A stretch of 52,690 nucleotides of DNA, taken from the NCBI GenBank assembly GCA_017554335.1, contig JAFZIO010000061.1:1-52690 (forward strand), in the 5' to 3' direction. The position numbers and the translations under genes were made by a program. Below the pieces are notes generated by a model. That model made no database searches. It saw only the letters and a program-made list of their open reading frames with translations, and had not been told where the DNA came from. Position 1 is the stretch's first letter. Each line of letters starts with the position of its first letter. This document shows positions 32,820 to 52,220 of this stretch, in pieces. The stretch comes from Bacteroidales bacterium. GTDB taxonomy: Bacteria > Bacteroidota > Bacteroidia > Bacteroidales > UBA932.

Positions 32820-32893
32820 GGTGCGTTGGCCGAGTGGCTAGGCGCAGGTCTGCAAAACCTGTCACAGTGGTTCGATTCCGCTACGCACCTCCA
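32820..32893 (+). tRNA. tRNA-Cys (anticodon GCA), CCA encoded
   Basis: The acceptor stem GGTGCGT (32820-32826) pairs with ACGCACC (32883-32889). Discriminator T at 32890 (U73 is the known identity base for Cys), then CCA. The anticodon arm CAGGT-CTGCAAA-ACCTG gives anticodon GCA. The T-arm GGTTCGATTCC is present. The 3' end is the integration target of the mobile element that follows. Confidence 0.96.
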
Positions 32894-32927
32894 AAAATGC
32901 CCCTGAACGTGCTTCAGGGGCATTTGC
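32877..32927 (+). repeat. attL: tRNA 3' end plus terminator repeat
   Basis: Left copy of the 51-bp direct repeat. It differs from the right copy at three places: the acceptor-stem base (C at 32884, G at the right) and the paired stem positions 32902 and 32918. The longest perfectly shared block around the tRNA end is GCACCTCCAAAAATGCC, the likely crossover zone. Confidence 0.88.
32895..32925 (+). terminator. tRNA-Cys terminator hairpin (left copy)
   Basis: AAATGCCCCTGAA (32895-32907) pairs perfectly with TTCAGGGGCATTT (32913-32925), loop CGTGC. It is part of the duplicated attachment sequence. The right copy at 52188-52218 has the paired change C-G to T-A, which keeps the stem intact. Confidence 0.8.
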
Positions 32928-32937
32928 TATATAAGAA

Positions 32938-32964
32938 TTGATACTAAGTTGATACTAAACTTTG
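32938..32964 (+). repeat. Integrase arm-type repeat, left end
   Basis: Two tandem units TTGATACTAAG and TTGATACTAAA followed by CTTTG. The same 27 bases occur at 52034-52060, in the same orientation, next to the integrase promoter. In the excised circle the two copies would flank the crossover core, as P and P' arm sites of tyrosine recombinases do. Confidence 0.7.
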
Positions 32965-33092
32965 GCGTAGCAAAAAAATTGGCCCTGTATGCCTTTTGGT
33001 GCAAACAGGGCTTTACGAATTACTAACGAGCCAGTCTCTCGACTCTTCGTTTGTGCAAATATAGCAACAATTATCCTAAGTATGGTATACCT

Positions 33093-33776
33093 TTACGCCA
33101 GCTTTCCCTGCACCAGGACATCTCCAGACTTCTCACCGGTGGCGGTGTTGACGTAGAAGTACTTGAAGAAGACCTTGGGAAGACCAGCGGACGGAGCGCC
33201 GCACTTGGCGTCGTACTTGGCCTTGATGTCGATGGCCGTGGCGACAGGAGTGTAAGGGTCATCGAAGGCAGCAGCCTTGCTGTAAGCACGGGTGATACCG
33301 TTGCTCTGGGGCTCGGAAGCCTGAATGATGAGCTTGAGGTTGGTCACGCTGTCGGGAATGCTCGCAAGGGTGAAGGTCATCGCGGAGCTGGAGATGGCCA
33401 CGGTTGCTGCTGCAGGAGCGTCCACACCGGACAGGGTAGGAGGAGTGGTGAGCATATTGCCACCGCAATAAACTACCCAGTAGTTCAGGCGGAGGAACAG
33501 GTTGGCACCGGAGATCTTACTCTTGGAGCCAAGGACGGACTTGCCCTGGGCTGTGTTGGCCGCAGCATTCCAGGCAAGGATCTGCTCGTTGGTGAGGCCG
33601 TGCCAAGCCTGCGAAAGCTGCTTGAAGACGGACTTCACGGAAGACTGGTAGGCGGTGCGGGTTGCGCCACCATAACCACGATTACGGATGTACTTGCGTC
33701 CACGGGTCTTGGCCGCGGTTACGCCCTTTGCGGAGCCTGACATCTCGTCGAAGGCGATTGAAGGAGTGTACTTCAT
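33093..33776 (-). CDS. DUF6266-like protein, paralogue A
   Basis: 227 residues, no signal peptide. The N-terminal ~110 residues carry the shared pattern of this family: KYTPSIAFDEMSGSAKGVTA, a basic segment RGRKYIRNRG, FKQLSQAWHGLTNEQILAWNA and SGANLFLRLN. The remainder is beta-rich. Two more divergent copies lie upstream in the same transcript (35250, 36444). The start overlaps the spanin-like gene by four bases, so it is coupled to the membrane/lysis-like genes. Function unknown. A virion or cell-surface beta-sandwich protein is one possibility. Confidence 0.8.
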   Translation of the reverse strand: MKYTPSIAFDEMSGSAKGVTAAKTRGRKYIRNRGYGGATRTAYQSSVKSVFKQLSQAWHGLTNEQILAWNAAANTAQGKSVLGSKSKISGANLFLRLNYWVVYCGGNMLTTPPTLSGVDAPAAATVAISSSAMTFTLASIPDSVTNLKLIIQASEPQSNGITRAYSKAAAFDDPYTPVATAIDIKAKYDAKCGAPSAGLPKVFFKYFYVNTATGEKSGDVLVQGKLA

Positions 33777-34264
33777 GATTTTTTGAGGTTAAGTGAAACA
33801 ATGAAACGTATAATAGTGTAGACTATCCAAGCTATGAGTAGCCACATTATAATAGAGCCAAGGGCCAGGCAGACACGCTGCCAGAGATTGAGCCTCTTCT
33901 CTACTTCTACCCTCTCGGTCTTAACACGGTCGCGGAACACCAGAGAGTCTCTGTAGACAATCTGCTTATCAACCAATACGGGCTGTTTTACAGGCTTTGT
34001 AGCAAGAGAGTGAACAAGTACGCCTCCGGAGACTATAGCCTCAGATTTGGCATACTTATTCTCAAGAACGGAGGCAGTGTCGAGGGTAACCACCTTCTCG
34101 ACTATTACCGGTAGTTCTACAAAAGCAGTATCCGTGACGGTGACAGTTTCCACCCTGACCTCTACCTTGGTACTGTCCGTCTGAACAGGAAGCGGACGGA
34201 CAGTACTGCAGGCAGACAGCAGAAGGAGGATAATGAGGATTGATATGATGCGATTGATTTTCAT
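33773..34264 (-). CDS. Lipoprotein with C-terminal membrane helix: unimolecular-spanin-like
   Basis: 163 residues. Lipobox LSAC gives a lipidated Cys19. The middle (20-125) is rich in Val/Thr/Glu/Lys beta-type segments, and a strong transmembrane helix runs from ~130 to ~158, ending in basic residues. A lipid anchor at one end and an inner-membrane helix at the other, joined by a ~110-residue periplasmic linker, is the architecture of u-spanins such as phage T1 gp11, which fuse inner and outer membranes at lysis. The gene is locked between a holin-like gene and a DUF6266-like gene by 4-base overlaps. Architecture-based call; sequence identity was not tested. Confidence 0.6.
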   Translation of the reverse strand: MKINRIISILIILLLLSACSTVRPLPVQTDSTKVEVRVETVTVTDTAFVELPVIVEKVVTLDTASVLENKYAKSEAIVSGGVLVHSLATKPVKQPVLVDKQIVYRDSLVFRDRVKTERVEVEKRLNLWQRVCLALGSIIMWLLIAWIVYTIIRFIVSLNLKKS

Positions 34265-34530
34265 TCTTCTGAATCTGATTTATCGGCCTTATGCCTGAGC
34301 TCGGCTTCGAACTTTCTGAACTTGATGTCGTATGATGTCTTAACCCCGAGTATTGCACCGCACAAAACCAGCAGCTCACTCACGATGGAGATTGCAGAAT
34401 TCGCAATCTCTCCAAGTGGCGGAACAAAGAACAGACACACTGCAGCTATGACCACGCCGCTACTGAAGCTCGCAATGGCGATTGCACTTTGCAGATGAGT
34501 GAGTTCTTTCTGGTCCAGACGGTGACTCAT
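34261..34530 (-). CDS. Small two-helix membrane protein, holin-like
   Basis: 89 residues with two hydrophobic segments (about 18-37 and 42-64) split by PPLGEIAN, and a highly charged C-terminal tail (KFEAELRHKADKSDSEE). Size, topology and charged tail resemble class II phage holins, but such features are not specific. It overlaps the spanin-like gene by ATGA and follows the unknown 233-residue gene by five bases. Confidence 0.55.
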   Translation of the reverse strand: MSHRLDQKELTHLQSAIAIASFSSGVVIAAVCLFFVPPLGEIANSAISIVSELLVLCGAILGVKTSYDIKFRKFEAELRHKADKSDSEE

Positions 34531-34535
34531 AGGGC

Positions 34536-35237
34536 TTAATGTCTTGCTATGAATGCTGTAAAGAACTGACCCGGGTTCTTTGTGCAGCCAACATCATTAA
34601 CATTGGTGCACGTAATCGTGGCATTGGCCAGATGAACCATAGTCATAGGAGCGCCGTTAGTGTGCCCCATAGACTCCGGATAAACCAGAGGGAAATATGC
34701 CTCCACATCATCGAACGTATCGGCAAGGCTGAACTCAATATCGAGAGACCCGTCATTGGCCCAGAACCTATTGAAGCGGACACACAGGAAAACGTAATTG
34801 TCCGAGTTGTACCCGTAGGCCTCGTTGTTCTGGATACCATCAGGCAGACCGTAAGGAAGCGGATGCCGGATAATGCCCTTATCGAGAACCCCGCGCTGGC
34901 CAGGCAGAGCATAGGCCGAACAGACAAAGATTGTGAGCGGCCCACGGTTATCGAAGGCTGAAATCCTCTCTATGAAGAGACTGTTATCTTTCAGCCAGGA
35001 GCGAAGGATAGTGCCCCTGTTCGGAGTAACGCCTGAAGCCATCAGCCAAACATAGGTCTGTGCCGACTTCTTCATAACCAGGTTCTGGAACTTGAATTCG
35101 ATGACGGTGGCCGCTTGGTACTCAGGGGCAGACAGATCTATGCTGAAGCGTCCTGTGAGAACCGTAAGCGTTGACGACTCATAGGACTTGAAAGTGACCT
35201 GCTCTATGCCGATGTTATTTGCTATTGATGTAATCAT
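34536..35237 (-). CDS. Unknown 233-residue protein of the DUF6266/lysis-like operon
   Basis: No family recognised. No signal peptide or membrane segment. Rich in aromatic and Asn residues with many short predicted beta strands, such as SLFIERISAF and YVFLCVRFNRFW, which suggests a beta-sandwich. It lies 12 bases after paralogue B and five bases before the holin-like gene in a tightly packed leftward operon. A structural or binding protein is conceivable, but nothing in the sequence proves it. Confidence 0.7.
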   Translation of the reverse strand: MITSIANNIGIEQVTFKSYESSTLTVLTGRFSIDLSAPEYQAATVIEFKFQNLVMKKSAQTYVWLMASGVTPNRGTILRSWLKDNSLFIERISAFDNRGPLTIFVCSAYALPGQRGVLDKGIIRHPLPYGLPDGIQNNEAYGYNSDNYVFLCVRFNRFWANDGSLDIEFSLADTFDDVEAYFPLVYPESMGHTNGAPMTMVHLANATITCTNVNDVGCTKNPGQFFTAFIARH

Positions 35238-35249
35238 AATTCCAGTAGA

Positions 35250-36311
35250 TTATTTGATAATAGCGACTCCGAATACCTCCATATGCTTGGCATGGGCACC
35301 GTCACGCCTGGAGAATTTGACAGTGTTGTAAGAGCTGCCTATGTAGATATTATGCTCAAGAAGCTGCACCGACCACTGCTGTGAGTCCTTGCCGCGTGCC
35401 GGGATATAGCATTGGCCACTGATGAAGTTCTCAGGAACTTCTGTAAAAGAGGCATCGACTCCAGCAAGGTAGCTCAGAAGCTCGAATTCCATGTTCGAAA
35501 TCATCAGAGCAGATCCAGGAACCTCTTCAACCGAGAGTTTATCGAATCGAGTCTTGGTCGGATCATACTCGATATTATCCATATTGATGATGGTGCGAGG
35601 AACGTAGATTTCTCCCTCTATCTGGGACTCATTCTTGCAGAAAGCGGAGATACGCATAGTCTCGCCCACGAAGCCGGTATCTGCATCCAGCCACCACAGC
35701 TCAATGAAAACCTTCTCGCCAAGCTCAGGTTTATAGCCAATAGTTGACAGATAGAGGCTGGTGATGTTTGACTCACAACCGTCATCCACAACACCGGGAG
35801 CCACGATTACAGTTTTACTCCAGCCAGAGGATATGCCGACTGACTGGCCACCAGACATCTTCACTACCAGCCTGCTTGAATCCTTGGGAGCATTAAGGCC
35901 GGCGAATGCAATGACATCCGGGGTTACCCAGAAGTCATCGTAATCCACCTCAGGGACATCGTTGACGTATTCAGGTGCTGTCTGCAGAAGAGGAAGCCCA
36001 AGCATCTGCCTGTTCTCATTGATGCGGACGAAAGCATTGTGAGCAGTCATTTCAGCAGGCTTTCCGAAGGTAGAGATACCCTTAAGATGACCAGCCAAGA
36101 CCCCCCAGGCTTTCATTTGGGAATCGGAGAGTTGCTTATATGCCCGGGAGACCTTGGACAGGTTATTCCTCTTGTCAGCCTGAGATGGCGTGACGACCTT
36201 ACTTTGTTTGGCTCTTGTGGAGAGTATATTGCGCCCGGAGACGTTGCGGGCTGTAACTTCCTTCGCGGTACCGGCGAAGTCGTTGAATGCTATTGAAGGT
36301 TTGGCGATCAT
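35250..36311 (-). CDS. DUF6266-like protein, paralogue B (long form)
   Basis: 353 residues. The N-terminus repeats the family pattern: KPSIAFNDFAGTAKEVTA, SGRN, SKVSRAYKQLSDSQMKAWGVL, GKPAEMTAHNAFVRIN. It is ~125 residues longer than paralogue A, with an added C-terminal beta-rich region containing ISGQCYIPARGKDSQQW and SRRDGAHAKHM. No signal peptide. A -7 box TATATTTG lies 36 bases upstream, so this gene can begin a transcript of five genes. Function unknown. Confidence 0.75.
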   Translation of the reverse strand: MIAKPSIAFNDFAGTAKEVTARNVSGRNILSTRAKQSKVVTPSQADKRNNLSKVSRAYKQLSDSQMKAWGVLAGHLKGISTFGKPAEMTAHNAFVRINENRQMLGLPLLQTAPEYVNDVPEVDYDDFWVTPDVIAFAGLNAPKDSSRLVVKMSGGQSVGISSGWSKTVIVAPGVVDDGCESNITSLYLSTIGYKPELGEKVFIELWWLDADTGFVGETMRISAFCKNESQIEGEIYVPRTIINMDNIEYDPTKTRFDKLSVEEVPGSALMISNMEFELLSYLAGVDASFTEVPENFISGQCYIPARGKDSQQWSVQLLEHNIYIGSSYNTVKFSRRDGAHAKHMEVFGVAIIK

Positions 36312-36346
36312 ATCCTAACGGTCTGTCGCAACCTCCGATTCCACCA

Positions 36347-36354
36347 CAAATATA
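36347..36354 (-). promoter_or_regulatory. Candidate promoter before DUF6266 paralogue B
   Basis: TATATTTG on the - strand matches TANNTTTG. After exactly 19 bases the -33 position reads ATTG (one mismatch to TTTG). Confidence 0.55.
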
Positions 36355-36443: not shown

Positions 36444-37160
36444 TTATACCAAAGTAATCTGGAAAGAAATCTTTGTGTAATTGCATCGAAGTCCTGTCAC
36501 AGAATCCAGCAAGAGATACCGGCAATGTACCTGATATGAGTTGAGGTCCAGATTCCAGATTTCATTGTATCCGGGTACAGGTACATCTACTATGCCGTCA
36601 GGGGATGAGCAGGGAGCAGAAGAGAGGAAATTCCTCAAATAACCGCTGTTTCGGCCGGCACCCGGCTCAGTAAACTGGAGCTTGGTAAGCAGCCTATATC
36701 GAGAGGGCAAGACGTTTTTGTCGAGAAAAACGTGAAACCTCAACACCAAATCATCCGTTCCACTTACCACAAGCGAATGATAATCGGCAGAATAAGCAGG
36801 GAAGGGCACAAGTGCAGGAAGTACTGGAACCTTCTCGTCTCCGAGTTGCGCAAAACCATGATATGCAGAAACAAAGAGATTGTATCCGGAGATATGGTGA
36901 TCCTTCCTGAATGGTGGTCGGTGGCTTGGGACATTCACGGCCAGGGCGTTCCACTCTTCCTGGACCGAGGGTTCGAGTGCCCTCCAGGACAGTAAAGCTC
37001 GCTGATGAACAGACAGGTTCTCCAACTGACAGATAGTGCCGGTGAACTCCGGTCTGGATCTGGACTTCCAATAGCAAACACCATCCCGGTGATAGAATGT
37101 AATGTCTCCCACAGATGACCAGCAATCCTCAAAAGGCATAGATGGAATGTATTTCGGCAT
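36444..37160 (-). CDS. DUF6266-like protein, paralogue C (most divergent)
   Basis: 238 residues. The N-terminus keeps the family plan with weaker identity: KYIPSMPFEDCWSSVGDITF, RALLSWRALEPSVQEEWNALA and HHISGYNLFVSAYHG. The C-terminal half is beta-rich with ELNS-type loops. No signal peptide. It is 132 bases upstream of paralogue B with separate promoter candidates, so it may be its own unit. It borders the hairpin-dense noncoding region. Function unknown. Confidence 0.72.
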   Translation of the reverse strand: MPKYIPSMPFEDCWSSVGDITFYHRDGVCYWKSRSRPEFTGTICQLENLSVHQRALLSWRALEPSVQEEWNALAVNVPSHRPPFRKDHHISGYNLFVSAYHGFAQLGDEKVPVLPALVPFPAYSADYHSLVVSGTDDLVLRFHVFLDKNVLPSRYRLLTKLQFTEPGAGRNSGYLRNFLSSAPCSSPDGIVDVPVPGYNEIWNLDLNSYQVHCRYLLLDSVTGLRCNYTKISFQITLV

Positions 37161-37188
37161 ATCTTTATAATCACTTTAGACAACTATT

Positions 37189-37196
37189 CAAAGATA
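37189..37196 (-). promoter_or_regulatory. Candidate -7 box before DUF6266 paralogue C
   Basis: TATCTTTG on the - strand, 29 bases before the start codon. The -33 position shows CTTG at a 20-base spacing. Confidence 0.48.
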
Positions 37197-37225
37197 ATCA
37201 ATATAAGCAAGATACACAAGATAAA

Positions 37226-37255
37226 CCCCTCTCCCAAGGCGCGAAAGGAGAGGGG
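37226..37255 (-). terminator. Hairpin at the border of the noncoding region
   Basis: CCCCTCTCC (37226-37234) pairs with GGAGAGGGG (37247-37255). On the - strand it is followed by TTTATCTT, a weak U-run. It could end a leftward transcript from the structured region before it reaches paralogue C, or be part of a structured RNA. Confidence 0.45.
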
Positions 37256-37444
37256 CTGCAGGACTGCTATGGAAGAACTTACCGAGGGAGGGAGAAGACC
37301 ATTACAAGTCTTAAACTCAGAGGTAACAAAGAGGGAGCTCAGAAGGAGCAGACAGCGTATAGCGAACATCCTGAAAACAAAGGTACGGCGGCAATGTGAT
37401 AATAACAATTACCACATTTTCCATAATCACGACCATATAGGCCA

Positions 37445-38134
37445 CAGCGGCGTTAGCCGCTGCTCCGGAGGAATATATTTCCCCTGGTTCCGGTCGCCCG
37501 AGCGTGATTTCCGGCGAGAGTCCGCACCGCCGACAGAGCGGACACCAATTATGGTGGGTCTGGTACTCTGAGGCGATGTGCGCCGAAGAGTGCCAGGCGG
37601 GCAAGGCCATAGGCCGCGGCAGGCAGTGGACGGTGGGACGTGGGAGCGAGGTAGGACGGAGACTCCACTGCAGGTAGTATGGCCTGACCAGAGGAATATC
37701 GTTTCGCCATAAGAACGTGAACGCAGCCCTGCCCGGCGGTAGCCGGAATAGCAGGGCTGCATATATACGAAGTACCGAGGAGCAAGGGCAGGCGAAGCGC
37801 TGCCGGAGCGGACGCGGAGCCGGAGATGAGCGTCAGCGAGACGAAGGCGTAGAAGTAGCGGAGGCAGGGCGGAGACAACTGCGCGACCCAGCGCGGGAGC
37901 GGAAGGCGTTGGTGCAGGAGCGAAGCGGATGCAGCAACTGCCTGGAGCGGGAGCGCCTAAGGCGGAAGGGGCACGGTGGATGTGGGAGGTGGCTGGTAGC
38001 GAGCGGGCACGTCTACTTGCTGATAAGTGATATTCGTGTTTGGTCTTTTGGGGCGGGGGCCCCGAAAGACCGGGGCTTGCGGAGGGTGCGGGAGTACGTA
38101 GCACCCAGACGCAAGCCCCTCCTGACGCCGCCCC
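37445..38134 (+). ncRNA. Candidate large structured RNA core
   Basis: The densest run of nested stems in the noncoding stretch. It ends in a three-level stem: GGGGCGG (38050-38056) with CCGCCCC (38128-38134), enclosing GGGGCTTGCG (38072-38081) with CGCAAGCCCC (38110-38119), enclosing GGGTGC/GCACCC. Purine-rich loops (GTTA, GGTA, CGAAG types) favour the + strand as the RNA. Size and setting (near tRNA and phage-type genes) recall giant RNAs such as GOLLD and ROOL, but no match to their consensus is claimed. No Bacteroidetes promoter is seen just upstream. Confidence 0.3.
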
Positions 38135-38174
38135 GACAGGGCACGAAGTACCGTCTCTTAAGAACTGACACTTA

Positions 38175-38288
38175 GCAACTTAACATAACTTACACGGCTT
38201 TTTTGTAACGCCGAGGGGCTTCCTGGTTGGAGCAATGGTAGGCCGTCTACCCCGAGGTGCTTACAAAAAAGTAGTTATGTTATGTTGC
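38175..38288. repeat. Long interrupted palindrome
   Basis: The outer arms GCAACTTAACATAACT (38175-38190) and AGTTATGTTATGTTGC (38273-38288) pair at 15 of 16 positions. After an asymmetric bulge, TTTTTTGTAA (38199-38208) pairs with TTACAAAAAA (38261-38270). The 52-nt loop has its own GGTAG/CTACC hairpin. It is AT-rich within GC-rich surroundings, so it stands out as a distinct site. Confidence 0.75.
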
Positions 38289-39069
38289 GGGGCATCGGGA
38301 CGCTGTACGCCCAAAGGCCGGCCCTGGCGGATAAATACCCGGGGCGGGCAGGCGGAAGTGACAGGGTGATGCCTGCAGCGCCCTGTGACTGGAGACAAAC
38401 CGCACCGAGCCGGCAGCTCGTCTGCCGTAATGATTCCAGCTGCGCTTGCGCAGATGACCGCTTCCCTTCTGCCCGCACAGCACTGCGGTGTCAGCCCGAA
38501 CGAGTGCTCGATAGTGAGGGCCTGCATCGGAACCTCGCAAGCGTCGGCCCTGCGTTTATCCCAAAACATACACACCTTTGATATCAGTAGCGCCGTTGGA
38601 GCGTCGGGGCTCATTCTCACGTATAGCAGAACACCTGTCAGCAAAATCTCCGCTTTTCTGATACTTATGTCTATAATATCGCTTCATTATGTTGCGAAAA
38701 TCGCCACAAACATCCCGAAGAGCACGAAGACCGGCTGGAGCCGGTCTCAGGCATCCGGGGGGCGGATGGCGCGGAGCGCCGAAGGCGCGAGGCGTGGAAT
38801 AGCCGGGCGGGCGGGGGTCTTCCCCGTTTGACCAACGAGATGCCGGTTGATTACAGATCCGGCGGAGCCGGGCCGCGGAGCGCCCGAGAGTCTGTGACCG
38901 GAGCGGCGGAGCCCGGAGGGAACAGTCTCTCAGCGGAGCTGGCAGAGTGGAGGTCTGCTGCCGCGCATTGTGCGGCGCAGGCCGGAAGCAAGCCTTCTGA
39001 GAGAAGCTTTAGCGGAGCGAAGAGGGCTTGACCGCTTAGATATCGGCTAATCTCCTCCTGACTGCGTTT

Positions 39070-40137
39070 CTATCCAAGCTCTTCCAGGCGGCGGGCGTAG
39101 AAGAAGGCCTCGGTGTTGACTTTCTTCAGGCGGTTGAGCTTGTTGAAGTTTTGGCTCTCAATGATTTCCGCAGCAAGGGCGGCATCGTCCGCGGGAGTGT
39201 AGTGGCGCACTTCGGCTATTCCCAATTGAAGGAGGCGGGCCAGGTAGGCCACCTTGGCGGCATCCCGGACGGCGCGTTCCATAGCGTAGTTCTCGGTAAG
39301 GATGAATCCGTTGACGCGGTGGGCTCCGCTGGTGAGCCAGGTGTATTCCTGAGCGTCCAGCGCCCCGTAGAGACAAATGTTCATGGCCGTGTTGTAGGCG
39401 TCGGCAAGTACATCGTCTGCAGAAAGCTCATCCAGACCGCGGTAACCGAGTTCGATAGGGACGACCTTGTTGAAGGTCCGGCGGACGATTTCCAGAGTGT
39501 CGGTGCGGTCCAGTATGGAGCTGACGTCGAAGAGCTGCTTCATGATCTCCATGGAGAAGGGCTTTTCCCCTTTGAAAAACGGAATGCCCGTGGTGTGCGG
39601 GGCGAAGGCCGTGAGTTTGTCGCCCAGCATGTCTTCCAATGACGGGACCTGAACCATGGCCGGTTCACCTTCCGTCTTGAGCAGCGGACTTTGGATGGGA
39701 AGGGTGATGACCTTGTTGTACTCTATGTCTTCGTACAGGACATCCAGAAGAATCTCGCCGTTGGTGTAACCGGAGGGATAGGACACCAGATACTGGTAAG
39801 AGGCGTGCGTCTTGGGGACCAGGGTACGGGACTGCCGGGAAAACTCCGTGACGCCGGTGAAGCCGTACTCGGCCGCATAGCGCTCCAGATAGTTGCCGAT
39901 TTGGGTCCCCGGCTTGCAGACGATGTCCACGTCTATGGAGAGCCTGCGGGAAGAGTCCAGATGGAGCATCAGGGCGGTGCCGCCTTTGAATACGAAGGGG
40001 CAGCCGGAGCGTACCAGGGATTCCAGCAGGGAGAAAGCCCGGATGGTCTTTTCCAGCAGGGATGCGTCTTTGATGTAGGGGTATTGGGTGCGGAGGGATT
40101 CAATCCACTCACGTGTGCGGCTTTCGGGGTTAATCAT
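39070..40137 (-). CDS. AbiEii/AbiGii-type nucleotidyltransferase toxin
   Basis: 355 residues. The nucleotidyltransferase signature FKGGTALMLHL followed by RRLSIDVDIVC near residues 52-75 supplies the GG(T)xxL and DxD elements of AbiEii/AbiGii toxins. PSLEDMLGDKLTAFAPH near ~190 is the second conserved motif (DKL). AbiEii toxins act in type IV toxin-antitoxin systems that abort phage infection. It overlaps the partner gene by eight bases, and that gene is first in the transcript, as antitoxins usually are. Composition is GC-rich like the chromosome, unlike the cargo to its right. Confidence 0.87.
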   Translation of the reverse strand: MINPESRTREWIESLRTQYPYIKDASLLEKTIRAFSLLESLVRSGCPFVFKGGTALMLHLDSSRRLSIDVDIVCKPGTQIGNYLERYAAEYGFTGVTEFSRQSRTLVPKTHASYQYLVSYPSGYTNGEILLDVLYEDIEYNKVITLPIQSPLLKTEGEPAMVQVPSLEDMLGDKLTAFAPHTTGIPFFKGEKPFSMEIMKQLFDVSSILDRTDTLEIVRRTFNKVVPIELGYRGLDELSADDVLADAYNTAMNICLYGALDAQEYTWLTSGAHRVNGFILTENYAMERAVRDAAKVAYLARLLQLGIAEVRHYTPADDAALAAEIIESQNFNKLNRLKKVNTEAFFYARRLEELG

Positions 40138-40930: not shown

Positions 40931-41203
40931 GAAATGTTAAAGATTTTTAACTACATGCGTGAAATCAGCAACCATCATAATACTTGACAATAACTTACAC
41001 TGGTTGATTTAATATTCGACTATCTATATAACTATAGCTTAATGGATTACGTAAATATGATTAATACTATTGCTCACATCACTAATCCTTTATATTAGCT
41101 CTATTCCATTTATTATCAGACATTTATATCACAGTAAGTTATTCATGCCATAAATTATTGTCGTTACGGCCGACATTATTGTTCTGCTATTAAACGCTTT
41201 TTG

Positions 41204-41211
41204 TACTTTTG
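41204..41211 (+). promoter_or_regulatory. Candidate -7 box of the TPR regulator gene
   Basis: TACTTTTG fits TANNTTTG and ends 19 bases before the ATG at 41231. No good -33 box. The ~270 bases between here and the AbiE operator are AT-rich and I see no gene in them. Confidence 0.42.
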
Positions 41212-41230
41212 TAATAATAACCATTACTGT

Positions 41231-45365: not shown

Positions 45366-45444
45366 ATGTTTATTAAGCGATTGTCTATTATTAAAATTCA
45401 TTATCTGGTATAATCTTGCATTTAGTAACAAAGAAACGCATTAT

Positions 45445-45795
45445 TTAGAATGAAACACTTGCGTAATAATATATTCCTGATGATAGTCTAACGCTAATTG
45501 AGTAACTACCATTTGATGGCAAGAATATGAATGATGGAACAGATCCAATTACAATATTGGCTTCCTCGTTTGCTCCAGTAGTCAAATCATTAATACTTAC
45601 TACGGCATCAGTTGATATAGAGTAAGATATGAAAGCCAATGCGTTAAGCATGGGGTACAGAAAACAAGTGAAAGGAGCTGAATCTGGAGTACGATAGATA
45701 TCTCCTGCTTCTCCAGAAATATGGAAAATAATTTCCTCAACCCCGTCAGAAGACGGAATTCTATCATTCCCAGTAGAGGGAGTAAAAGGACACAT
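45445..45795 (-). CDS. Small exported beta-protein whose signal peptide is out of frame
   Basis: As it stands, 116 residues from the ATG at 45795, with no signal peptide. The 13 codons upstream in this frame read EKVIVLFSVIAFA, a typical signal core, but have no start codon. The natural start ATGAAAAAG at 45836-45828 is in another frame: five A's are present, and six would join MKK-VIVLFSVIAFA to this frame. So there is a one-base deletion in a short A-run: a sequencing error, a switch or a broken gene. The protein is beta-rich with no recognised family and would be first in the exported-protein operon. Confidence 0.6.
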   Translation of the reverse strand: MCPFTPSTGNDRIPSSDGVEEIIFHISGEAGDIYRTPDSAPFTCFLYPMLNALAFISYSISTDAVVSINDLTTGANEEANIVIGSVPSFIFLPSNGSYSISVRLSSGIYYYASVSF

Positions 45796-45870: not shown

Positions 45871-45879
45871 TTGTTGTAA

Positions 45880-46384: not shown

Positions 46385-46987
46385 TCACTTGGCTAAGAGA
46401 TAGTCGATTATGCCTTTGACGTGGAGGCTGACGAGGGCGTTACGGCCGAGGGTGGATTCCAGGAAGAGGAGGTCCTGGGGGTTGTCGTGGAAAAGATTCT
46501 CACTTAGGGCGCTAGCGCAGAGGGTGTTTTTGAGGAGGGCGAAGTCGGCTTCGAGGTCGGGGTCGCCGTCGGAGTAGTCGCGGCGGAGCTTGTGGCCGGG
46601 GAGGTAGAGGGCGGCGGCCTGGTAGAGGCAGGTGGCGAGGCGGTCGCCTGGGGTCTGGCCCCGGGAGGTGTAGCAGGACCAGCCGCGGGCGGTCATCCAC
46701 TCTTTGCCGTTTCCGGCGGCGTTGGTGTGGATGGAGACCAGGCAGACGTTGTGTTTGCCTAATTTGTTGCACCAGGTGTTGACTCTGTCGGTGCGGGTGC
46801 GGAGGGAGACGTCGTAGGGTTCCGGGGTGAGGAGAAGGGCGTCGTAGCCGCGGTACTGGAGGTGTTTGACTACGGCGGAGGCGATTTCGCGGGTGTAGAT
46901 CCATTCGTAGTAGCGGCGGTCCGGGGAGCATTTGCAGGGGGTGTTGGAGCCGTGGCCGTTGTCGATGAGTATTTTCGTTTCCATCAT
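46385..46987 (-). CDS. N-acetylmuramoyl-L-alanine amidase (Amidase_3-like)
   Basis: 200 residues, no signal peptide. Zinc-binding residues fit Amidase_3: His in ILIDNGHGSNTP, Glu in YYEWIYTREIA, His in SIHTNAAGNG, and a late Glu in LSENLFHD. It cuts the bond between N-acetylmuramate and L-Ala in peptidoglycan. Similar small amidases are common next to VirE_N/DUF3987 genes in Bacteroides genomes and are also typical endolysins. With no export signal, a holin-like partner (34261 in this element) would be needed for access to the wall. A homologue lies just outside the element at 52418. Confidence 0.88.
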   Translation of the reverse strand: MMETKILIDNGHGSNTPCKCSPDRRYYEWIYTREIASAVVKHLQYRGYDALLLTPEPYDVSLRTRTDRVNTWCNKLGKHNVCLVSIHTNAAGNGKEWMTARGWSCYTSRGQTPGDRLATCLYQAAALYLPGHKLRRDYSDGDPDLEADFALLKNTLCASALSENLFHDNPQDLLFLESTLGRNALVSLHVKGIIDYLLAK

Positions 46988-47003: not shown

Positions 47004-48734
47004 TTAAGGGTTTGAGGGTTTTGCGTAGCGGCCGTGGCTTTCGCGGCGGAGGACGCCGGTGGCGGCCCAGGTCTTGAGGTAGCGCTCTGCGGTGGCGTCG
47101 GGGATGCCGATGTCGGCGGCGACGGTGAGGGCTTCGGCGGTGGTGAACTGCTCCGGGAGGCGGTTGTACAGGAGCTGCTGGCGGGTGCTGCGCTCGGCGG
47201 AGGGCTTTTTGAGGTCTTCGCTGGAGAGTTCGCGCCAGACGCGGAGGGTGTGGCGGAGGAGGACGGCGGCGATGGCCATGGCGGAGCGGTAGTCTTCCTG
47301 GTCGCAGACGATGGGGGCCGGGAGTTCGCCGGTGTCCATCAGGCGGAGGGTGGAGAGGATGAGGGCGATGCGGAAGGTGATGAGGCCGAGGCGGCGGACG
47401 GAGGGGATGATGTCGTCGCCGAAGAGGCCGGTGTACTGGGTCTGGGCTGCGGCGTACCAGGTGTTGAAGTGCTGCTGCTGGTCCTGGGTGAGGATGAATT
47501 CGGTATCGGCCCGGTTGAGAAGGGTTTCGTGGAAGTGGAGGTAGCACTCTCCCAGGGCGTCGAAGACGGTGTCGAGGGTGCCGGGGGCGCTGCGGGCAAA
47601 GACGTCGATCCAGACGGGCTGGAAGTCCAGGTAGTAGAAAATGAAGCGGGAGAAGAGGCCGTTTTCGGCGTCGGGGATGAGGGCGGAGATTTGCCGGGGC
47701 GTTCCGGAAAGGACGGCGGAGAGGCGAGGCCGCAGGAGCTCGACGAATTCCCGGTCCTTGCGGCGGGTGTAGGATATGGGCTCGTGGTGGAAGGCCTTGC
47801 GAAAGCCGTCGGAGTAGTCGCCGAAGTCGGACTTGAAGGCGACGGCAAGGGTGTCGCCCTCGGTCTCGAAGAGGAGGCCGCAGCTGTCGTTGTCGCCCAG
47901 GACCTGGTAGAAGGAGGTGGCGCTGGAGTTGGCGGGGATGATGAGGGTTTTCATCTTGGGGAGTTCTGGCACCGGGCAGCGCGGGTCTTTGCGCTTTTTG
48001 ATGTCGTACTCTATCTTGTCGGCCTGGTAGGCGGCCATTTCTTCGTCGTACTGGTCCCGCAGCTGCTGGTGGATGGGCTGGACGAGGCGCCTGCAGAGGG
48101 AGAGGCGGCCTTTGCCGGCGGAGGCCTGGGCGGTGACGTAGAGGAAGAGGTTTGCATAGACGCGGCGGTCGCCATAGACGCCGTAGATGGTGGGGATGAC
48201 GGCGGAGAGGGTGACGATGGCCCCGAGGATGAGAAGATCTGCATCGGCGTCGGAGATGGCGTGGGCGGCGATGGATTCCAGGAGCTCCGGGAGGTGGCCG
48301 CGGAGCTGGGGCGAGAAGGTGGGCAGCGGCTGGGGCTTCGGTGAAACCCTCAAACCCTCATTTCCCTTAAAACCCTCACTTCCCTCATTTGAGGGTTTGC
48401 GGTGAGGGAAGCAGATGGGGATGCCGGCGTCGCGGGCTTTCTGGAAGAGGGTCCTGATGGTGATGGCGGCGGTGCCGTGGGCGTGGAGGCAGCGGTCGTA
48501 CTGGAGGTCGGTCTCTTCCCGGGAGTAGCCAGGATAGAAGGCGGAAAGGCGATGGAAGTAGCTGCGTCCGGCTTCCCCGAGGTGGTGGCTGAGGGCGAAG
48601 CCGATGTCGCGCCAGTCGGCGTAGGTGGCGGTGAGGTCCAGCCTGGCCTGCTCAATGCGGCGGGTGAGGATCTCGATGTCGCTGTCTTCGCCGGCGGGGA
48701 GCCAGTCGGAGGGTTTGAACTTTTTCTTTGTCAT
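47004..48734 (-). CDS. DUF3987-like protein (primase/helicase-associated)
   Basis: 576 residues from the ATG at 48734, which shares one base with the VirE_N-like stop (TGATG). N-terminal ~70-residue region with YADWRDIGFALSHHLGEAGR (a PriCT-like segment), a repetitive linker, then the DUF3987-type region with PTIYGVYGDRRVYANLFLYV, ASAGKGRLSLCRRLV (a Walker-A-like site) and ENGLFSRFIFYY, and a C-terminal winged-helix-like end. Such proteins accompany VirE_N domains in Bacteroidetes mobile elements and are thought to help replicate them. The extra upstream reading frame, rich in Arg/Pro/His, is antisense noise. Confidence 0.82.
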   Translation of the reverse strand: MTKKKFKPSDWLPAGEDSDIEILTRRIEQARLDLTATYADWRDIGFALSHHLGEAGRSYFHRLSAFYPGYSREETDLQYDRCLHAHGTAAITIRTLFQKARDAGIPICFPHRKPSNEGSEGFKGNEGLRVSPKPQPLPTFSPQLRGHLPELLESIAAHAISDADADLLILGAIVTLSAVIPTIYGVYGDRRVYANLFLYVTAQASAGKGRLSLCRRLVQPIHQQLRDQYDEEMAAYQADKIEYDIKKRKDPRCPVPELPKMKTLIIPANSSATSFYQVLGDNDSCGLLFETEGDTLAVAFKSDFGDYSDGFRKAFHHEPISYTRRKDREFVELLRPRLSAVLSGTPRQISALIPDAENGLFSRFIFYYLDFQPVWIDVFARSAPGTLDTVFDALGECYLHFHETLLNRADTEFILTQDQQQHFNTWYAAAQTQYTGLFGDDIIPSVRRLGLITFRIALILSTLRLMDTGELPAPIVCDQEDYRSAMAIAAVLLRHTLRVWRELSSEDLKKPSAERSTRQQLLYNRLPEQFTTAEALTVAADIGIPDATAERYLKTWAATGVLRRESHGRYAKPSNP

Positions 48735-49273
48735 CAGCGGAGTTCTGGGGCTATGTAGGCCTTGGGGTCGTGCGGTAGGAAGCAGGCGCGGGCGACGTCT
48801 TTGCCGGAGGAGTCGATGGGGATGCGGTAGGTCTGGCGGATGTAGGCATCGACGGCGCGGAACCAGTTGAGGTGGGTGTCTTCGGCAAGGTCGATGGGGA
48901 TGACCCATTTGAGGCCGTGGCCACGGGGGCTGCGGAAGAGGAGGAGGGTTTCGAAGGCGGGGTCCTGCAGGAGTGCCTGGAAGGTGTCTTCTACGGCCTG
49001 CAGGTGGTCGAAGTCTAGGCAGAGGAGGCCGGAATGTAAGATGAGGCCGCTTTCTCCGCGGGTGGCGAAGAGGCCGGAGAAGGTGCAGAAGTCGAAGCGG
49101 CTGCGCTTGAAGGCGGCCTGGGCCTTTTCGTCGGTTAGGGCGCGTAGATGGGCGGTGCGTTCTGCGGCGGCCGGGCCGGTGACGTAGCCGTATGCGTCCC
49201 GGAGGGCCCAGGTGGCAGCGGGCCGGGTATTGAGGACCGGGGCGCGGAAGAAGGAGAAGGAGGGGTTGTCCAT
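48734..49273 (-). CDS. VirE N-terminal-like (BT4734-type) protein
   Basis: 179 residues from the ATG at 49273, two bases after the HTH gene. The first ~90 residues of the longer open frame overlap that gene antisense-like and are not conserved in character. Sequence marks: TGPAAAERTAHLRALTDEKAQAAFK, LLCLDFDHL, LLFRSPRGHGLKWVIPID and DSSGKDVARACFLPHDP. The DFDH and late D/R residues recall primase-polymerase catalytic patterns, and the family is often paired with DUF3987. The name VirE does not mean Agrobacterium VirE2 function. Translationally coupled to DUF3987. Confidence 0.8.
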   Translation of the reverse strand: MDNPSFSFFRAPVLNTRPAATWALRDAYGYVTGPAAAERTAHLRALTDEKAQAAFKRSRFDFCTFSGLFATRGESGLILHSGLLCLDFDHLQAVEDTFQALLQDPAFETLLLFRSPRGHGLKWVIPIDLAEDTHLNWFRAVDAYIRQTYRIPIDSSGKDVARACFLPHDPKAYIAPELR

Positions 49274-49274
49274 A

Positions 49275-49571
49275 TCAACGGCGGTGTTTGTCCTTTCTAA
49301 GGGAGAGTTTACCGGATTCAAGATCCTGGAGTAACTTTCGTTTGTTGACAAGGGAACTATGCCCGTTCTTTTTGAGCTTGATATTTCCTTGGTTAACGTG
49401 TGCGTAGAAAGTGGGCTCACTGCATTTGAGAATCTGGCAGGCCTCTTTGACTTTGATGTACTCATCGGCAGGTGGTTCCGGGTCCTGTTTAATGGCATCT
49501 TGTACTGCGGACGTGACAATCGGTTTGAGGATGTCACCGAAGAATTTTGTAATTGCGGGGTCGATTTCCAT
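49275..49571 (-). CDS. Helix-turn-helix DNA-binding protein (excisionase-like)
   Basis: 98 residues from the ATG at 49571. The longer open frame adds 33 residues that look untranslated. The C-terminal half has EYIKVKEACQILKCSEPTFYAHVNQGNIKLKKNG, split here as a MerR/excisionase-type winged helix: helix, turn, recognition helix and wing, followed by a basic tail (SLRKDKHRR). Likely a small regulator or recombination directionality factor for the element. It is two bases before the VirE_N-like gene. Confidence 0.8.
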   Translation of the reverse strand: MEIDPAITKFFGDILKPIVTSAVQDAIKQDPEPPADEYIKVKEACQILKCSEPTFYAHVNQGNIKLKKNGHSSLVNKRKLLQDLESGKLSLRKDKHRR

Positions 49572-49723
49572 GGTGTTGCTATTTGTTTTGCAGGGCAATA
49601 TTACACTTAATTTCTTGAATGTTAATTTGTTGCAAAAAGCAGAAAAAGCAGGATTCAGAATGGGAATCAAGCGTATGGAGCTGTTGAATGAAGCAAGAAA
49701 AAGAAGGAAAGATATTCCGGGCT

Positions 49724-50491
49724 TTATCTGGGATTAGGATAGTCCTTCAAGATGGAAAGGATACCGTGACGATCGTCTCCTTTTGTGGCTATGTCGCTTG
49801 AGATTTTGAGCCCGCGATAGGATTTTCCATGGCTGTTAAAGATGAAAGCCCTGTTCATTTCGCTGTCGGTCAGACTGAAATGCCTGGCGAACAGTCCGGC
49901 TGCTACTTTGCTTCCGTGCCATTTGAGAGGCAGCGATGGGGTCCGGTGATCTAAGATGAGTCGTTCAAAGAATTCATCATCTGTATCATGTACGTAATAG
50001 TTGAGCCGCCTTGCTATGCCGGAGAGTCGTGGCAGGTAAGTGGCGAGAACCGATGACGTGTCCGCAAACTCTTTAAGGATGAGAGCCATATCAGAATCAA
50101 GTTCCTGAATGTATTCATGATATGAGAGGATTATTTGTGTGCCTCCATAGAGTCTTTCTGAAGGCACTGGATTGGCTTTGATAATTGCGGTAAGGTCTTC
50201 TATTGTGTGCCTAATAGTACGATAACGGGAGATGAATACGGATATTTCGTACCGACGAGCATCATTAATCAGAATCTCCGGCCATAAGTCGATAATACTG
50301 TAAAAGCAATCACGCAATTTTGATTGGAACTCTTCTTTTCTGAGGGATATTGTCATAGCATCCTTGATGCCGTCATAGAATAGTGTGGGGCGCGCGCCGT
50401 CCTTCTCAATAAAGTTAGCCAAGTTTTGCATGGCGGACTGGACCTCAGTCATTATCAACCGGGTTCTGTAAAGCCATTTGTGGTGATTCAT
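49724..50491 (-). CDS. Unknown 255-residue protein downstream of the integrase
   Basis: No family recognised. Mainly alpha-helical by composition, with no signal or membrane segment. The last third has HGSKVAAGLFARHFSLTDSEMNRAFIFNSHGKSYRGLKIS, given here only as position ~190-235, where a helix-turn-helix-like layout is possible. I considered RteC, a regulator of Bacteroides conjugative transposons, because of the general helical look, but no specific motif supports it. It is separated from the integrase by a hairpin terminator. Confidence 0.65.
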   Translation of the reverse strand: MNHHKWLYRTRLIMTEVQSAMQNLANFIEKDGARPTLFYDGIKDAMTISLRKEEFQSKLRDCFYSIIDLWPEILINDARRYEISVFISRYRTIRHTIEDLTAIIKANPVPSERLYGGTQIILSYHEYIQELDSDMALILKEFADTSSVLATYLPRLSGIARRLNYYVHDTDDEFFERLILDHRTPSLPLKWHGSKVAAGLFARHFSLTDSEMNRAFIFNSHGKSYRGLKISSDIATKGDDRHGILSILKDYPNPR

Positions 50492-50524
50492 ATCTTCAAG
50501 AGTTTAGAATGGCACAAAATGACG

Positions 50525-50549
50525 CAAGACGCCTTTGCGGGGCGTCTTG
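50525..50549 (-). terminator. Terminator of the integrase transcript
   Basis: CAAGACGCC (50525-50533) pairs perfectly with GGCGTCTTG (50541-50549) and is followed on the - strand by CGTCATTTTG. Confidence 0.7.
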
Positions 50550-50593
50550 TAATAGTTCCTTCTCAGTCTAATGGCTGATTAAAGCAAAAGACT

Positions 50594-51973
50594 CTATCGG
50601 AAGTACTCGTATTTATCCGTCAGCTTCTCTACTACTTTGAGATTCTCGGCTTTGATGTATTTCCGAAGGGTTGTAGGAGATGTATGGCCGGTTACTTTCA
50701 TTATGTCATAGATGTCAATTCCGGCGAGATACATCAAGGTTGCCCCGGTGCGGCGGGCTGTGTGGGTTCGTATAAGATCACAACGCCGGACCTTTGTCTT
50801 CTGTGGTGTGCCGCCTTTTGTAGTTTCTATTTCCACCATGTCTGTGATGCCAGCAGCTTCAGCCACCTCCTTGATGTATCGGTTGATTACCTGATCTTCC
50901 AAGTGTGGCATTTGGTAGTCATATTTTTCCAGGATGGCTTTCAGCGCACTGTTACAGGGGATGGATACTTTGGCCCCGGTTTTCTGCTGACAAATATTGA
51001 GGTATGTGATTTCCTCTTCGCGGATCTCGGATTTGGTTTTGCCTGGATTGTCGGGGTCCGGCACTTCTACAATTACCTTTTTTGTCAGGGTATTGAAATT
51101 GTCACGGCTTATATTATTATAATCGGAAACGCGCTGGGCCGTCCATACGCCAACCATAAAAATGTCCCTGGCTTGCTGGTGGCCTATACCGAATTTTGAA
51201 AGATCTGCTGCCATCATCTTATCCAGTTCTTCTTTTGTCAGGTAAATGTTGTCTACATCAACCCTAGTACCCTTGAACTTTTTATCTTTCCATTTGTTAT
51301 TTGTGTGGTGGCCTTCACTTTCCGCGACATAGAGGATATACTTTAACTCCTTTATGCATTTGCCGATTGAGTTCACAGCATATTTCTTATTCTTAAGGTA
51401 GGCGGTAAAATCATAGTAGAACTGCATATCTATATCATTGAAGTCGTATGTCTGGCCGGTATCTTCCTGAAAATATTTGAATTGGTTGAGGGCCTGCTTT
51501 ACGGCTTTGATTGTTGAGGGCGCATAGTTTGTGCCTTTATCGGTCTGTCGTACACCTGAAGTGATTTGGTCCTGGTATAGGTCAACGAATTTATTCAAGG
51601 TCATCCGCTTTGCTTCAGCTTCCTTTCTTTTGCGTTCTTCTTCTCGACGGAGAGCTTCTTCTTTTTCTTCTTTCAAGACGATGTCGTCTATTAAGGTGCG
51701 TGCCTGCTCCGGAGTGATTTTGACTCCTTGCCTGAGAAGATTATCGACGGCCGCGGTGATCTGAGCGGTTAGAGTTTTAATCCGCATGCCTTCCTCCGTC
51801 TTCATATAGATAGTATGAAGCTTTCCCTTGGGAGATGCCGTATATTTGACTATATCGACATCAATGGTTGTTGTGGATAGGATGTTGACGCCCAATTTAG
51901 GGCTTTGAATGCGGGCGACTAGAGGAGCGCGGCCTTCCGTTTTGCGGGTGCGAAGAATAAAGCAGACAGACAT
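50594..51973 (-). CDS. Tyrosine-type site-specific integrase
   Basis: 459 residues from the second start. A GTG 36 bases upstream is in frame but falls on the predicted -7 box. Order: N-terminal arm-binding domain (VCFILRTRKTEGRAPLVARI), a long charged helix, a SAM-like core-binding domain (SIGKCIKELKYILYVAES), and the catalytic domain. Catalytic residues: Arg in TAQRVSDYNNIS, Lys in QQKTGAKVSIPC, HTARR, the His in VTGHTSPTT, and Tyr in LRKYI. It recombines the attachment sites at the tRNA-Cys 3' end. It lies about 200 bases from attR. Confidence 0.95.
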   Translation of the reverse strand: MSVCFILRTRKTEGRAPLVARIQSPKLGVNILSTTTIDVDIVKYTASPKGKLHTIYMKTEEGMRIKTLTAQITAAVDNLLRQGVKITPEQARTLIDDIVLKEEKEEALRREEERKRKEAEAKRMTLNKFVDLYQDQITSGVRQTDKGTNYAPSTIKAVKQALNQFKYFQEDTGQTYDFNDIDMQFYYDFTAYLKNKKYAVNSIGKCIKELKYILYVAESEGHHTNNKWKDKKFKGTRVDVDNIYLTKEELDKMMAADLSKFGIGHQQARDIFMVGVWTAQRVSDYNNISRDNFNTLTKKVIVEVPDPDNPGKTKSEIREEEITYLNICQQKTGAKVSIPCNSALKAILEKYDYQMPHLEDQVINRYIKEVAEAAGITDMVEIETTKGGTPQKTKVRRCDLIRTHTARRTGATLMYLAGIDIYDIMKVTGHTSPTTLRKYIKAENLKVVEKLTDKYEYFR

Positions 51974-52008
51974 AAATGAGACATTTTTTGCGTTAGTAAT
52001 TCGTACCA

Positions 52009-52016
52009 CAAAGATA
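52009..52016 (-). promoter_or_regulatory. Candidate integrase promoter beside the arm repeat
   Basis: TATCTTTG on the - strand matches TANNTTTG. The 27-bp arm repeat starts 17 bases upstream and covers the -33 region, so integrase bound to the arm could repress its own gene. Confidence 0.5.
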
Positions 52017-52033
52017 ATAATAAAAAACCTAAG

Positions 52034-52060
52034 TTGATACTAAGTTGATACTAAACTTTG
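52034..52060 (+). repeat. Integrase arm-type repeat, right end
   Basis: Identical over 27 bases to 32938-32964 (two tandem TTGATACTAA units). It lies 109 bases from the right attachment repeat. The ~110 bases between are AT-rich with no gene. Confidence 0.7.
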
Positions 52061-52169
52061 TTGTCTGCGCTTAATATTAATTAATGTAAGTTTTTAGGAA
52101 GATATTAGTAATTAGCTTATTATGGGGACCGCTTGAAATACGTAGTTAAATGTAATAAAGAAAGAAAGG

Positions 52170-52220
52170 TCCGCTAGGCACCTCCAAAAATGCCTCTGAA
52201 CGTGCTTCAGAGGCATTTGC
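52170..52220 (+). repeat. attR: tRNA 3' end remnant plus terminator repeat
   Basis: Right copy of the 51-bp direct repeat. It carries only the last part of the tRNA and has G (52177) where the working tRNA has C, so it is not a functional acceptor end. The hairpin is kept by the paired changes at 52195 and 52211. Confidence 0.88.

Follow-up and report, generated by a model that had tools for sequence, protein, structure and literature searches.

Most of the phage satellites described so far come from Proteobacteria, Firmicutes, cyanobacteria and actinobacteria. P4 combines an integrase and a primase-helicase with tRNA-type integration, and the hallmarks of P4-like satellites are psu, sid, delta and the alpha primase. 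Phage-inducible chromosomal islands (PICIs) are reduced elements with an integrase, an Xis/AlpA-like helix-turn-helix (HTH) protein and a replication gene, the AlpA-type regulator and terS being their hallmarks. Among integrative elements of other kinds, NBU1 is tRNA-targeted. Here, a 19.3-kb element at a tRNA-Cys gene of a Bacteroidales bacterium is described. The window, i.e. the whole stretch of DNA analysed (52,690 nt, JAFZIO010000061.1), is the complete contig C57 of a metagenome-assembled genome (MAG) of 2.35 Mb, 87.6% complete. The element is best explained as an intact integrative element behaving like a phage satellite, its capsid and terminase most likely coming from a helper phage, a reading to which we assign a probability of about one half.

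A new finding is that, judged from shared genes and gene order, the element belongs to a widespread family of Bacteroidales mobile elements. This family is real, mobile by its history, mostly intact and built like a satellite. In open-licence PubMed Central, searched at the level of titles and abstract starts, no paper describing such elements in Bacteroidales was found.

Integration at tRNA-Cys

The target gene and the repeats at both ends are located as follows.

32820..32893, plus strand: tRNA-Cys (gca), integration target, intact (ARAGORN, Rfam)
32877..32928, plus strand: attL copy of a 52-nt direct repeat, tRNA 3' end and terminator (repeat search, flank alignments)
32938..32964, plus strand: 27-nt repeat with two TTGATACTAA sites, probable integrase arm sites, attL side
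52034..52060, plus strand: 27-nt repeat with two TTGATACTAA sites, probable arm sites, attR side
52170..52221, plus strand: attR copy of the 52-nt direct repeat (repeat search, flank alignments)

The 52-nt repeat brackets the element, with 94% identity between its copies and 19,293 nt from start to start, and spans the last 17 nt of tRNA-Cys and the terminator hairpin. Two of the three positions at which the copies differ are compensatory in the terminator stem, and because of this the copies may derive from different backgrounds. The 27-nt repeat is perfect and lies just inside each att copy. It holds the 10-mer TTGATACTAA in tandem, giving four sites in the whole window where 0.06 would be expected; these pairs are probably the integrase arm sites. 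A distance of 24 nt separates the start of the integrase ORF from the right-hand pair.

An empty site was sought with a tRNA-Cys/terminator query, which matched 53 of 61 genomes of the genus; 30 loci were inspected, including the window's own. At a site without the element (G004:C22, locus L216), the window flanks joined at the repeat align over 477 bp with 93.5% identity and no gap. The match of the left flank followed by element DNA stops where the repeat ends (151 bp, 85.4%), and that of the right flank by itself begins at the repeat and runs to the contig end (378 bp, 97.4%); homology on the left side extends only 42 nt upstream of the tRNA. A second genome (G072, L215) carries the susC start (94% over 35 residues), tRNA-Cys and an amidase gene (90%) in the window's order without the element, the joined-flank model aligning here in two pieces. 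From these two arrangements, the element is read as an insertion between tRNA-Cys and the amidase gene starting near 52361.

The sequence-only reading of this DNA had considered the attachment repeats, integrase and tRNA target clear, and had proposed to look for an empty tRNA-Cys site. The repeat measures 52 nt, the tRNA is intact, the integrase belongs to Phage_integrase/SAM_5 and the empty site exists in G004. Given that site and the many integration sites of the relatives, the genes are not fixed in the chromosome, and the element has the integrase, the att repeats over a tRNA and the empty site of a site-specifically integrated mobile element.

Directly outside attR lies a second amidase gene (window 52222-52690; L215, L216, L217). 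In G004 the stretch matching window 52222-52690 follows tRNA-Cys and contains repeated TTCCCACATT, like the end of another element. The outside amidase near 52361 probably belongs to another element at the same tRNA-Cys, since an amidase gene directly follows tRNA-Cys in G019 and lies less than 2 kb from it in G086.

Gene content

Leftwards from the integrase, E17, the HTH_17 gene, BT4734-like_N, PriCT_2 plus DUF3987, the amidase gene and four cargo ORFs are followed by AbiEi/AbiEii, the noncoding block, E06, E05, E04, E03, E02, E01 and the tRNA. Except for the BT3442-like regulator, all these genes are on the minus strand.

50594..52009, minus strand: tyrosine integrase, Phage_integrase/SAM_5 (Pfam, PHROG)
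49724..50491, minus strand: E17, 255 aa, recurs beside the integrase in relatives, no family
49275..49670, minus strand: HTH_17 excisionase-like protein (Pfam, PHROG)
48734..49537, minus strand: BT4734-like_N (PF08800), primase-like, start uncertain (Pfam, PHROG)
47004..48908, minus strand: PriCT_2 plus DUF3987 primase-helicase-like protein; the listed ORF probably overstates the N terminus (Pfam)
46385..46987, minus strand: N-acetylmuramoyl-L-alanine amidase/endolysin (Pfam Amidase_3, 7.4e-18; PHROG_435 endolysin, 1.8e-33)
45445..45795, minus strand: cargo ORF, 116 aa, no family (Pfam)
43749..45431, minus strand: secreted-looking cargo protein, 560 aa, no family, presumably with an HExxH-like motif
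43221..43691, minus strand: lipoprotein-like cargo, 156 aa (by eye)
41201..42988, plus strand: BT3442-like regulator, 595 aa, cargo (NCBIfam match far below cut-off)
40130..40867, minus strand: AbiEi antitoxin (DUF6577), defence cargo (Pfam, PADLOC)
39070..40137, minus strand: AbiEii toxin, defence cargo (Pfam, PADLOC)
37161..39069, no strand: conserved noncoding hairpin-rich block (DNA-level matches upstream of E06 elsewhere)
36444..37160, minus strand: E06, 238 aa, third paralogue; promoter-like site 59 nt upstream
35250..36311, minus strand: E05, 353 aa, E01-like N-terminal part and beta-rich C-terminal part (AlphaFold2, sequence comparison)
34536..35237, minus strand: E04, 233 aa, predicted nearly all-beta (AlphaFold2)
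34261..34530, minus strand: E03, 89 aa, holin-like, two transmembrane segments (topology)
33773..34264, minus strand: E02, 163 aa, u-spanin-like topology with N-terminal hydrophobic segment and C-terminal transmembrane segment
33093..33776, minus strand: E01, 227 aa, hallmark gene adjoining the tRNA, paralogue of E05 and E06, no Pfam/PHROG family

Of two genes that had been called VirE_N/DUF3987-like, one does encode DUF3987, together with PriCT_2, and the other is BT4734-like_N by Pfam. The amidase gene that had been noted is an Amidase_3 by Pfam and an endolysin by PHROG, and the AbiE-like pair is AbiEii/AbiEi by PADLOC.

Distribution of the family

Queries with E06 and E05 each matched 14 of the 61 genomes, all in the window's genus; matches were strong in 11 and 9 genomes and consisted only of weak E01-paralogue matches in three and five, respectively. 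In the fetched loci of the genus, the cassette or parts of it lie beside tmRNA, tRNA-Ser, tRNA-Phe, tRNA-Cys and tRNA-Ala. When an E01 alignment was scanned against one genome per species (84,980), 171 relatives were found, of which the best 80 loci were examined. These are nearly all MAGs and overlap with the genus set, so that the two are not independent. All 80 are labelled Bacteroidota at various ranks except two, Bacillota and Oscillospiraceae, which probably reflect binning. Carriers among them include Candidatus Cryptobacteroides, Rikenellaceae, Alistipes, Prevotellaceae and Muribaculum sp. An289.

The order E06-E05-E04-holin-spanin-E01 recurs, with gaps, across many Bacteroidales genomes. 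Where more than 3.9 kb upstream of E01 is visible (55 loci), E05 is present in 53, E04 in 43 and E06 in 42; 8 of the 72 ORFs labelled E05 are short paralogues or fragments. A tRNA or tmRNA within 1.5 kb past the E01 3' end was found in 17 of 69 loci with room for one, always on the opposite strand, against 3.6 expected by chance from the tRNA density of the same loci. Other E01 loci end elsewhere, for example at mnmE in G095 and G091 (gene name by eye).

The arrangement from integrase to E01 could be read in at least four relatives, G090 (at tRNA-Ser, about 22 kb), G089 (about 17 kb), G095 and G091. The integrase of G091 matches firmly (1.5e-25) and that of G089 weakly (SAM_5 only, 9.7e-5); the G090 integrase is 25% identical to that of the window, and the G095 one was called by eye. 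In all four, cargo, block, E06 and the rest follow, preceded in G089, G095 and G091 by BT4734N and DUF3987, which were not recognised in G090. No direct repeats of at least 14 nt were found beside the integrases of nine relatives in the fetched stretch.

Variants of this plan occur. In G085, G086 and G087 the E-cassette and block have the opposite orientation with respect to the integrase arm, the replication module being DUF3987 in the first two and an AAA_25 protein with a DUF6371 zinc-ribbon protein in G087. E06 keeps its position but runs opposite to E05 in L118, L119, L121, L125, L128, L133, L137, L148, L154 and L155, possibly by inversion or as a separate cassette. The host genome itself has a second E-cassette beside tmRNA (G000:C4, L037; E05 94%, E04 97%) and an integrase-E06-block unit (G000:C16, L038). 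Such smaller units (L038, L047, L048, L050, L174) lack E01-E05 and consist of another integrase, a small gene (in L174 taken to encode a Fic-like protein), E06 and the block. The last two may move independently of the rest. The IMG/VR contig with the L174 unit also carries an ORF that looks terminase-like by eye (15767-17446), and this unit may adjoin a prophage.

Defence genes

The slot between the primase-helicase gene and the noncoding block carries different defence genes in different relatives. PADLOC was run on the AbiE pair and eight proteins hand-picked as likely cargo, covering part of the slot ORFs. All ten matched: AbiE, type IIG restriction-modification (RM), HKD-Snf2, type I methyltransferase, Septu PtuA, IetS and TmtA. 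Among ten further ORFs six matched, including PtuB, IetA and PDC-S13. The window pair scored 2.7e-118 (AbiEii) and 9.2e-54 (AbiEi), and the two genes are neighbours, as in an AbiE system. AbiE, type IIG RM, HKD-Snf2, PDC-S13 and TmtA sit between the replication genes and the block, whereas in two relatives Septu and IetAS are found where DUF3987 faces the inverted cassette, in the interval separating them. In L114 a type I RM is located past E01 and may be outside the element. In L104, another AbiE pair was seen between tRNA-Arg and E05. The interval from DUF3987 to the block would offer a handle for finding new defence systems.

The noncoding block

The block, which the sequence-only reading had not noted, contains no credible gene. 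It is GC-rich for the greater part, and at the DNA level it resembles sequence upstream of E06 in other genomes. Copies were detected in 37 of the 80 named loci; loci with the block include L040, L041, L042, L043, L045, L047, L048, L050, L057, L058, L091 and L174. The window's block matches the family model only in two short parts and resembles the C4 and C16 copies of its own genome. Besides the tRNA, Rfam gave no match at E 1 or better.

Alignments of 11 sequences, of nine after the doubtful L043 and L060 were dropped, and of 17 with L043 included gave results that agreed. The nine-copy alignment (1,348 columns) has 329 pairs in the fold, of which 111 changed on both sides, against 41-48 in three column-shuffled alignments. 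With G-U pairs forbidden, G-T cells numbered 41 and A-C cells 54 in the nine copies, and 63 and 101 in the 17 copies, whereas the control, RNase P from the same taxonomic order, gave 50 G-T against 7 A-C cells (12 of 14 RNase P loci, two partial matches being omitted). The block thus keeps Watson-Crick complementarity, with a slight lean to the strand opposite E06. Because covariation is strong without the G-T excess of RNase P, the block fits DNA hairpins or a function on both strands better than a usual RNA; the same counts weaken the idea of an ordinary one-strand RNA. A 5' leader of E06 is disfavoured by a promoter-like site 59-97 nt upstream of E06 in 5 of 17 sequences (window, L037, L045, L048, L058), figures that carry no chance expectation and come from a scan with other matches elsewhere.

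In P4 the anti-phage hotspot lies directly beside cos, as outlined by Rousset et al. 2022 (PMC9122126). As the block adjoins the defence slot in the same manner, it is a candidate packaging or replication site. In L043 (same genome as L160), L091 and L161 the block was seen beyond the E01 3' end, pointing towards E01.

Lysis genes

Two transmembrane segments were predicted in 42 of 47 E03 homologues and two hydrophobic segments in 41 of 50 E02 homologues (N- and C-terminal in the window copy), a lipobox by an author-defined pattern occurring in only 25 of the 50. PHROG returned nothing significant for either protein. The holin-like and u-spanin-like genes of the sequence-only reading therefore stand by topology and lack a PHROG counterpart; they are best called putative.

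Three lysis cassettes replace one another around E01. Cassette A (E03/E02) was found in 40 of the 80 loci, cassette B (phage lysozyme, holin-like, spanin-like) in 11 and cassette C (an endolysin, presumably M15-like from its motifs, and two membrane proteins) in 9; A and B co-occur in two loci, A and C or B and C in none. At least one cassette is present in 58 of the 80. The endolysin calls are firm for the amidase, the lysozyme and, in G085, an endolysin gene next to tmRNA; for the cassettes' small membrane proteins, the names holin and spanin come from topology or position only.

Selection, predicted structures and profile searches

Each window gene was compared with its three or four closest usable relatives for the ratio of nonsynonymous to synonymous substitution rates (dN/dS). 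Values were 0.11-0.15 for E01, 0.14-0.24 for E02, 0.07-0.12 for E03, 0.04-0.37 for E04, 0.08-0.14 for E05 and 0.13-0.37 for E06, mostly below 0.15 overall. These are rough figures, the high ones stemming from distant pairs, with dS saturated in many pairs and same-genome duplicates included (L039/L165, L042/L141). E01-E06 are under purifying selection.

AlphaFold2 predicted a nearly all-beta E04 (predicted local distance difference test, pLDDT, 89.9; predicted template modelling score, pTM, 0.89) and a beta-rich E05 (pLDDT 81.8, with a poor N terminus). No sequence relative was found in the PDB at E 1 or better for E04 (family profile) or E05, and PHROG gave no match for the window copy of E04 or for 39 E05 members. 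A beta domain shared by E04 and E05 was dropped after hhalign found no relation between their profiles, and so was a recollected 'DUF6266-like' label for E01, E05 and E06, which had no Pfam support in the window copies or in 39 E06 members. A hypothetical protein 28% identical to E01 over 90% of its length was met in MW202486 (L088 577-1209), a circular genome of 4,577 bases labelled Inoviridae.

The 18 element ORFs gave no significant capsid, portal, terminase or relaxase match in Pfam and PHROG, in line with the earlier statement that structural, packaging and mobilisation genes are missing; the element thus has none of the capsid, portal and terminase genes of a tailed temperate phage as far as these profiles reach. 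Pfam relaxases, as expected of an integrative and mobilizable or conjugative element (IME/ICE), were absent from the window and from 10 proteins of relatives. Megablast against phages and plasmids gave no match. IMG/VR scans with the window integrase and DUF3987, single-sequence scans that reach close relatives only, found nothing. One of E01, E04, E05 and E06 may be a capsid protein too divergent to recognise.

Interpretation

If the element is a satellite, the HTH_17 protein would be its excisionase, BT4734N/PriCT-DUF3987 would replicate the excised circle and the block, beside the cargo slot like cos in P4, would serve packaging or replication. E04-E06 and E01 would be particle-associated or helper-remodelling proteins, and holin, u-spanin and endolysin would release particles whose capsid and terminase would most likely be supplied by a helper phage. 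The satellite idea had already been raised from the sequence, and its economy is strengthened by the family with its integrase, primase-helicase, exchangeable defence genes and conserved distal module; its helper was not found, neither Terminase_6N nor HK97 capsid, the two families tested, having a match in the 87.6%-complete host MAG. Several further points tell against it. Among the satellite hallmarks, psu, sid and terS are unmatched in the Pfam/PHROG scans of the element ORFs (terS by PHROG); a primase-like gene of another family is present instead of the P4 one, and the excisionase-like HTH_17 protein may correspond to the AlpA-type regulator of PICIs. Some copies are broken, with stops inside E01 of G091 and of one G103 copy, and L049 consists of remnants. 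The holin and spanin were identified by topology, and 21 of the 80 loci have none of the lysis cassettes or amidases searched for, several of them cut by contig ends and some not, Muribaculum L143 included. IMG/VR (2.9 million), scanned with signature proteins, yielded three contigs in all, these scans being pattern finding that may miss distant relatives. The review PMC11389934 states in outline that satellites cannot lyse cells themselves, and the element's own lysis genes conflict with satellites so described: by annotation, the amidase endolysin of the window and the three cassettes of the family would amount to a lysis mechanism of their own.

That last point fits an autonomous temperate virus better than a known satellite, the lysis genes being kept through three different cassettes. 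Such a virus, with capsid and packaging proteins too divergent to recognise, would build its particle from E04, E05, E06 and E01, use the block as packaging or replication site and free its virions with the lysis cassette; we regard it as possible but doubtful. Virion proteins are often beta-rich, as is predicted for E04, with confidence, and for E05. Since neither has a PDB or PHROG match, the missing recognised capsid says little, and the E01 relative in the Inoviridae-labelled record and the host MAG without those two helper families point the same way. Against a virus stand the lack of a terminase-like or Zot-like protein among the window genes (Pfam, PHROG), the near absence from IMG/VR and the loci where E06 and the block accompany another integrase without E01-E05, unexpected behaviour in a virion gene. 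Two readings stay in play: a satellite that brings its own lysis genes, and a virus whose particle proteins are not recognised. Tentatively, the family may be a new lineage of small temperate Bacteroidales viruses (E04/E05/E06/E01 particle, block as DNA-structure packaging or replication site, exchangeable lysis modules, anti-phage slot), or else self-lysing satellites; the odds are against this bolder proposal.

The tRNA integration, primase and cargo are also common in IMEs and cis-mobilizable elements (CIMEs), and an element mobilised by conjugation in trans would have the block, rich in inverted repeats, as origin of transfer (oriT) and another role for the lysis-like genes. A relaxase could hide among two large proteins of the relatives' backbone, of 757 and 729 aa, which have no Pfam family. 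The block exceeds 1 kb, the usual oriT being far shorter, different endolysin types near E01 have no obvious role in conjugation and the Pfam scans gave no relaxase, so this is unlikely. A little less likely again is an island that releases DNA or vesicles by self-lysis, its beta-rich proteins aiding uptake or killing competitors: lysis genes without a recognised capsid would suit it, no uptake genes were recognised and we know of no precedent. Integrase, replication and lysis genes without a capsid are the expected residue of a decayed prophage that lost its structural module, and broken copies exist. However, the same reduced content and order occur at many sites in many species, cargo varies while the backbone is constant, and no capsid-like family was seen among the 70 largest ORF clusters (by eye, partly profile-scanned). 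Purifying selection, with dN/dS far below 1, disfavours decay, and together with the conserved order it led us to reject a degenerate prophage, which has very little probability.

Comparison with known systems

Muribaculum sp. An289 (L143), whose title bears no MAG label, is probably a cultured isolate, so that excision and particles may be directly testable there; the lysis cassette was not recognised in its copy. If the satellite reading is right, the concept extends to a dominant gut phylum through a family with primase-helicase, defence slot, block and lysis genes, and self-lysing satellites would contradict the statement that satellites cannot lyse cells. A particle formed by the beta-rich proteins would represent a new type of virus.

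Charybdis elements, of about 4.6 kb from marine settings with an archaeal host, are viruses or satellites according to their abstract (PMC12324425). They likewise have no virus hallmark genes and join an accessory module to a conserved, putatively structural one; the integrase-DUF3987-lysis architecture is absent from that abstract description. Prophages of Porphyromonas gingivalis (PMC10367356, in summary) are also temperate Bacteroidales elements at tRNAs (tRNA-Ser or tRNA-Pro) with spanins, but they are full phages with major capsid proteins. NBU1-type IMEs, named in PMC11389934, share integration in Bacteroidales; in the present element no relaxase was found and lysis genes are present.

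With PICIs, capsid-forming PICIs (cf-PICIs) and phage-inducible chromosomal minimalist islands (PICMIs), the element shares the form of a reduced integrative element with integrase, HTH protein, replication gene and defence cargo. From this group it differs in its lysis genes, with no terS or capsid genes found. PICMIs, as summarised in PMC10803314, encode no capsid-remodelling genes either, but integrate beside fis in Vibrionaceae and not at a tRNA in Bacteroidales. P4-like satellites differ in psu, sid and delta, unmatched in the scans of the element, which has its own holin-spanin-endolysin set, a Bacteroidales host and no known helper. The likeness to them lies in the integrase, the primase-helicase and the tRNA-type integration. 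It extends to the small hotspot of exchangeable anti-phage systems between conserved genes, as outlined for P4 in PMC9122126.

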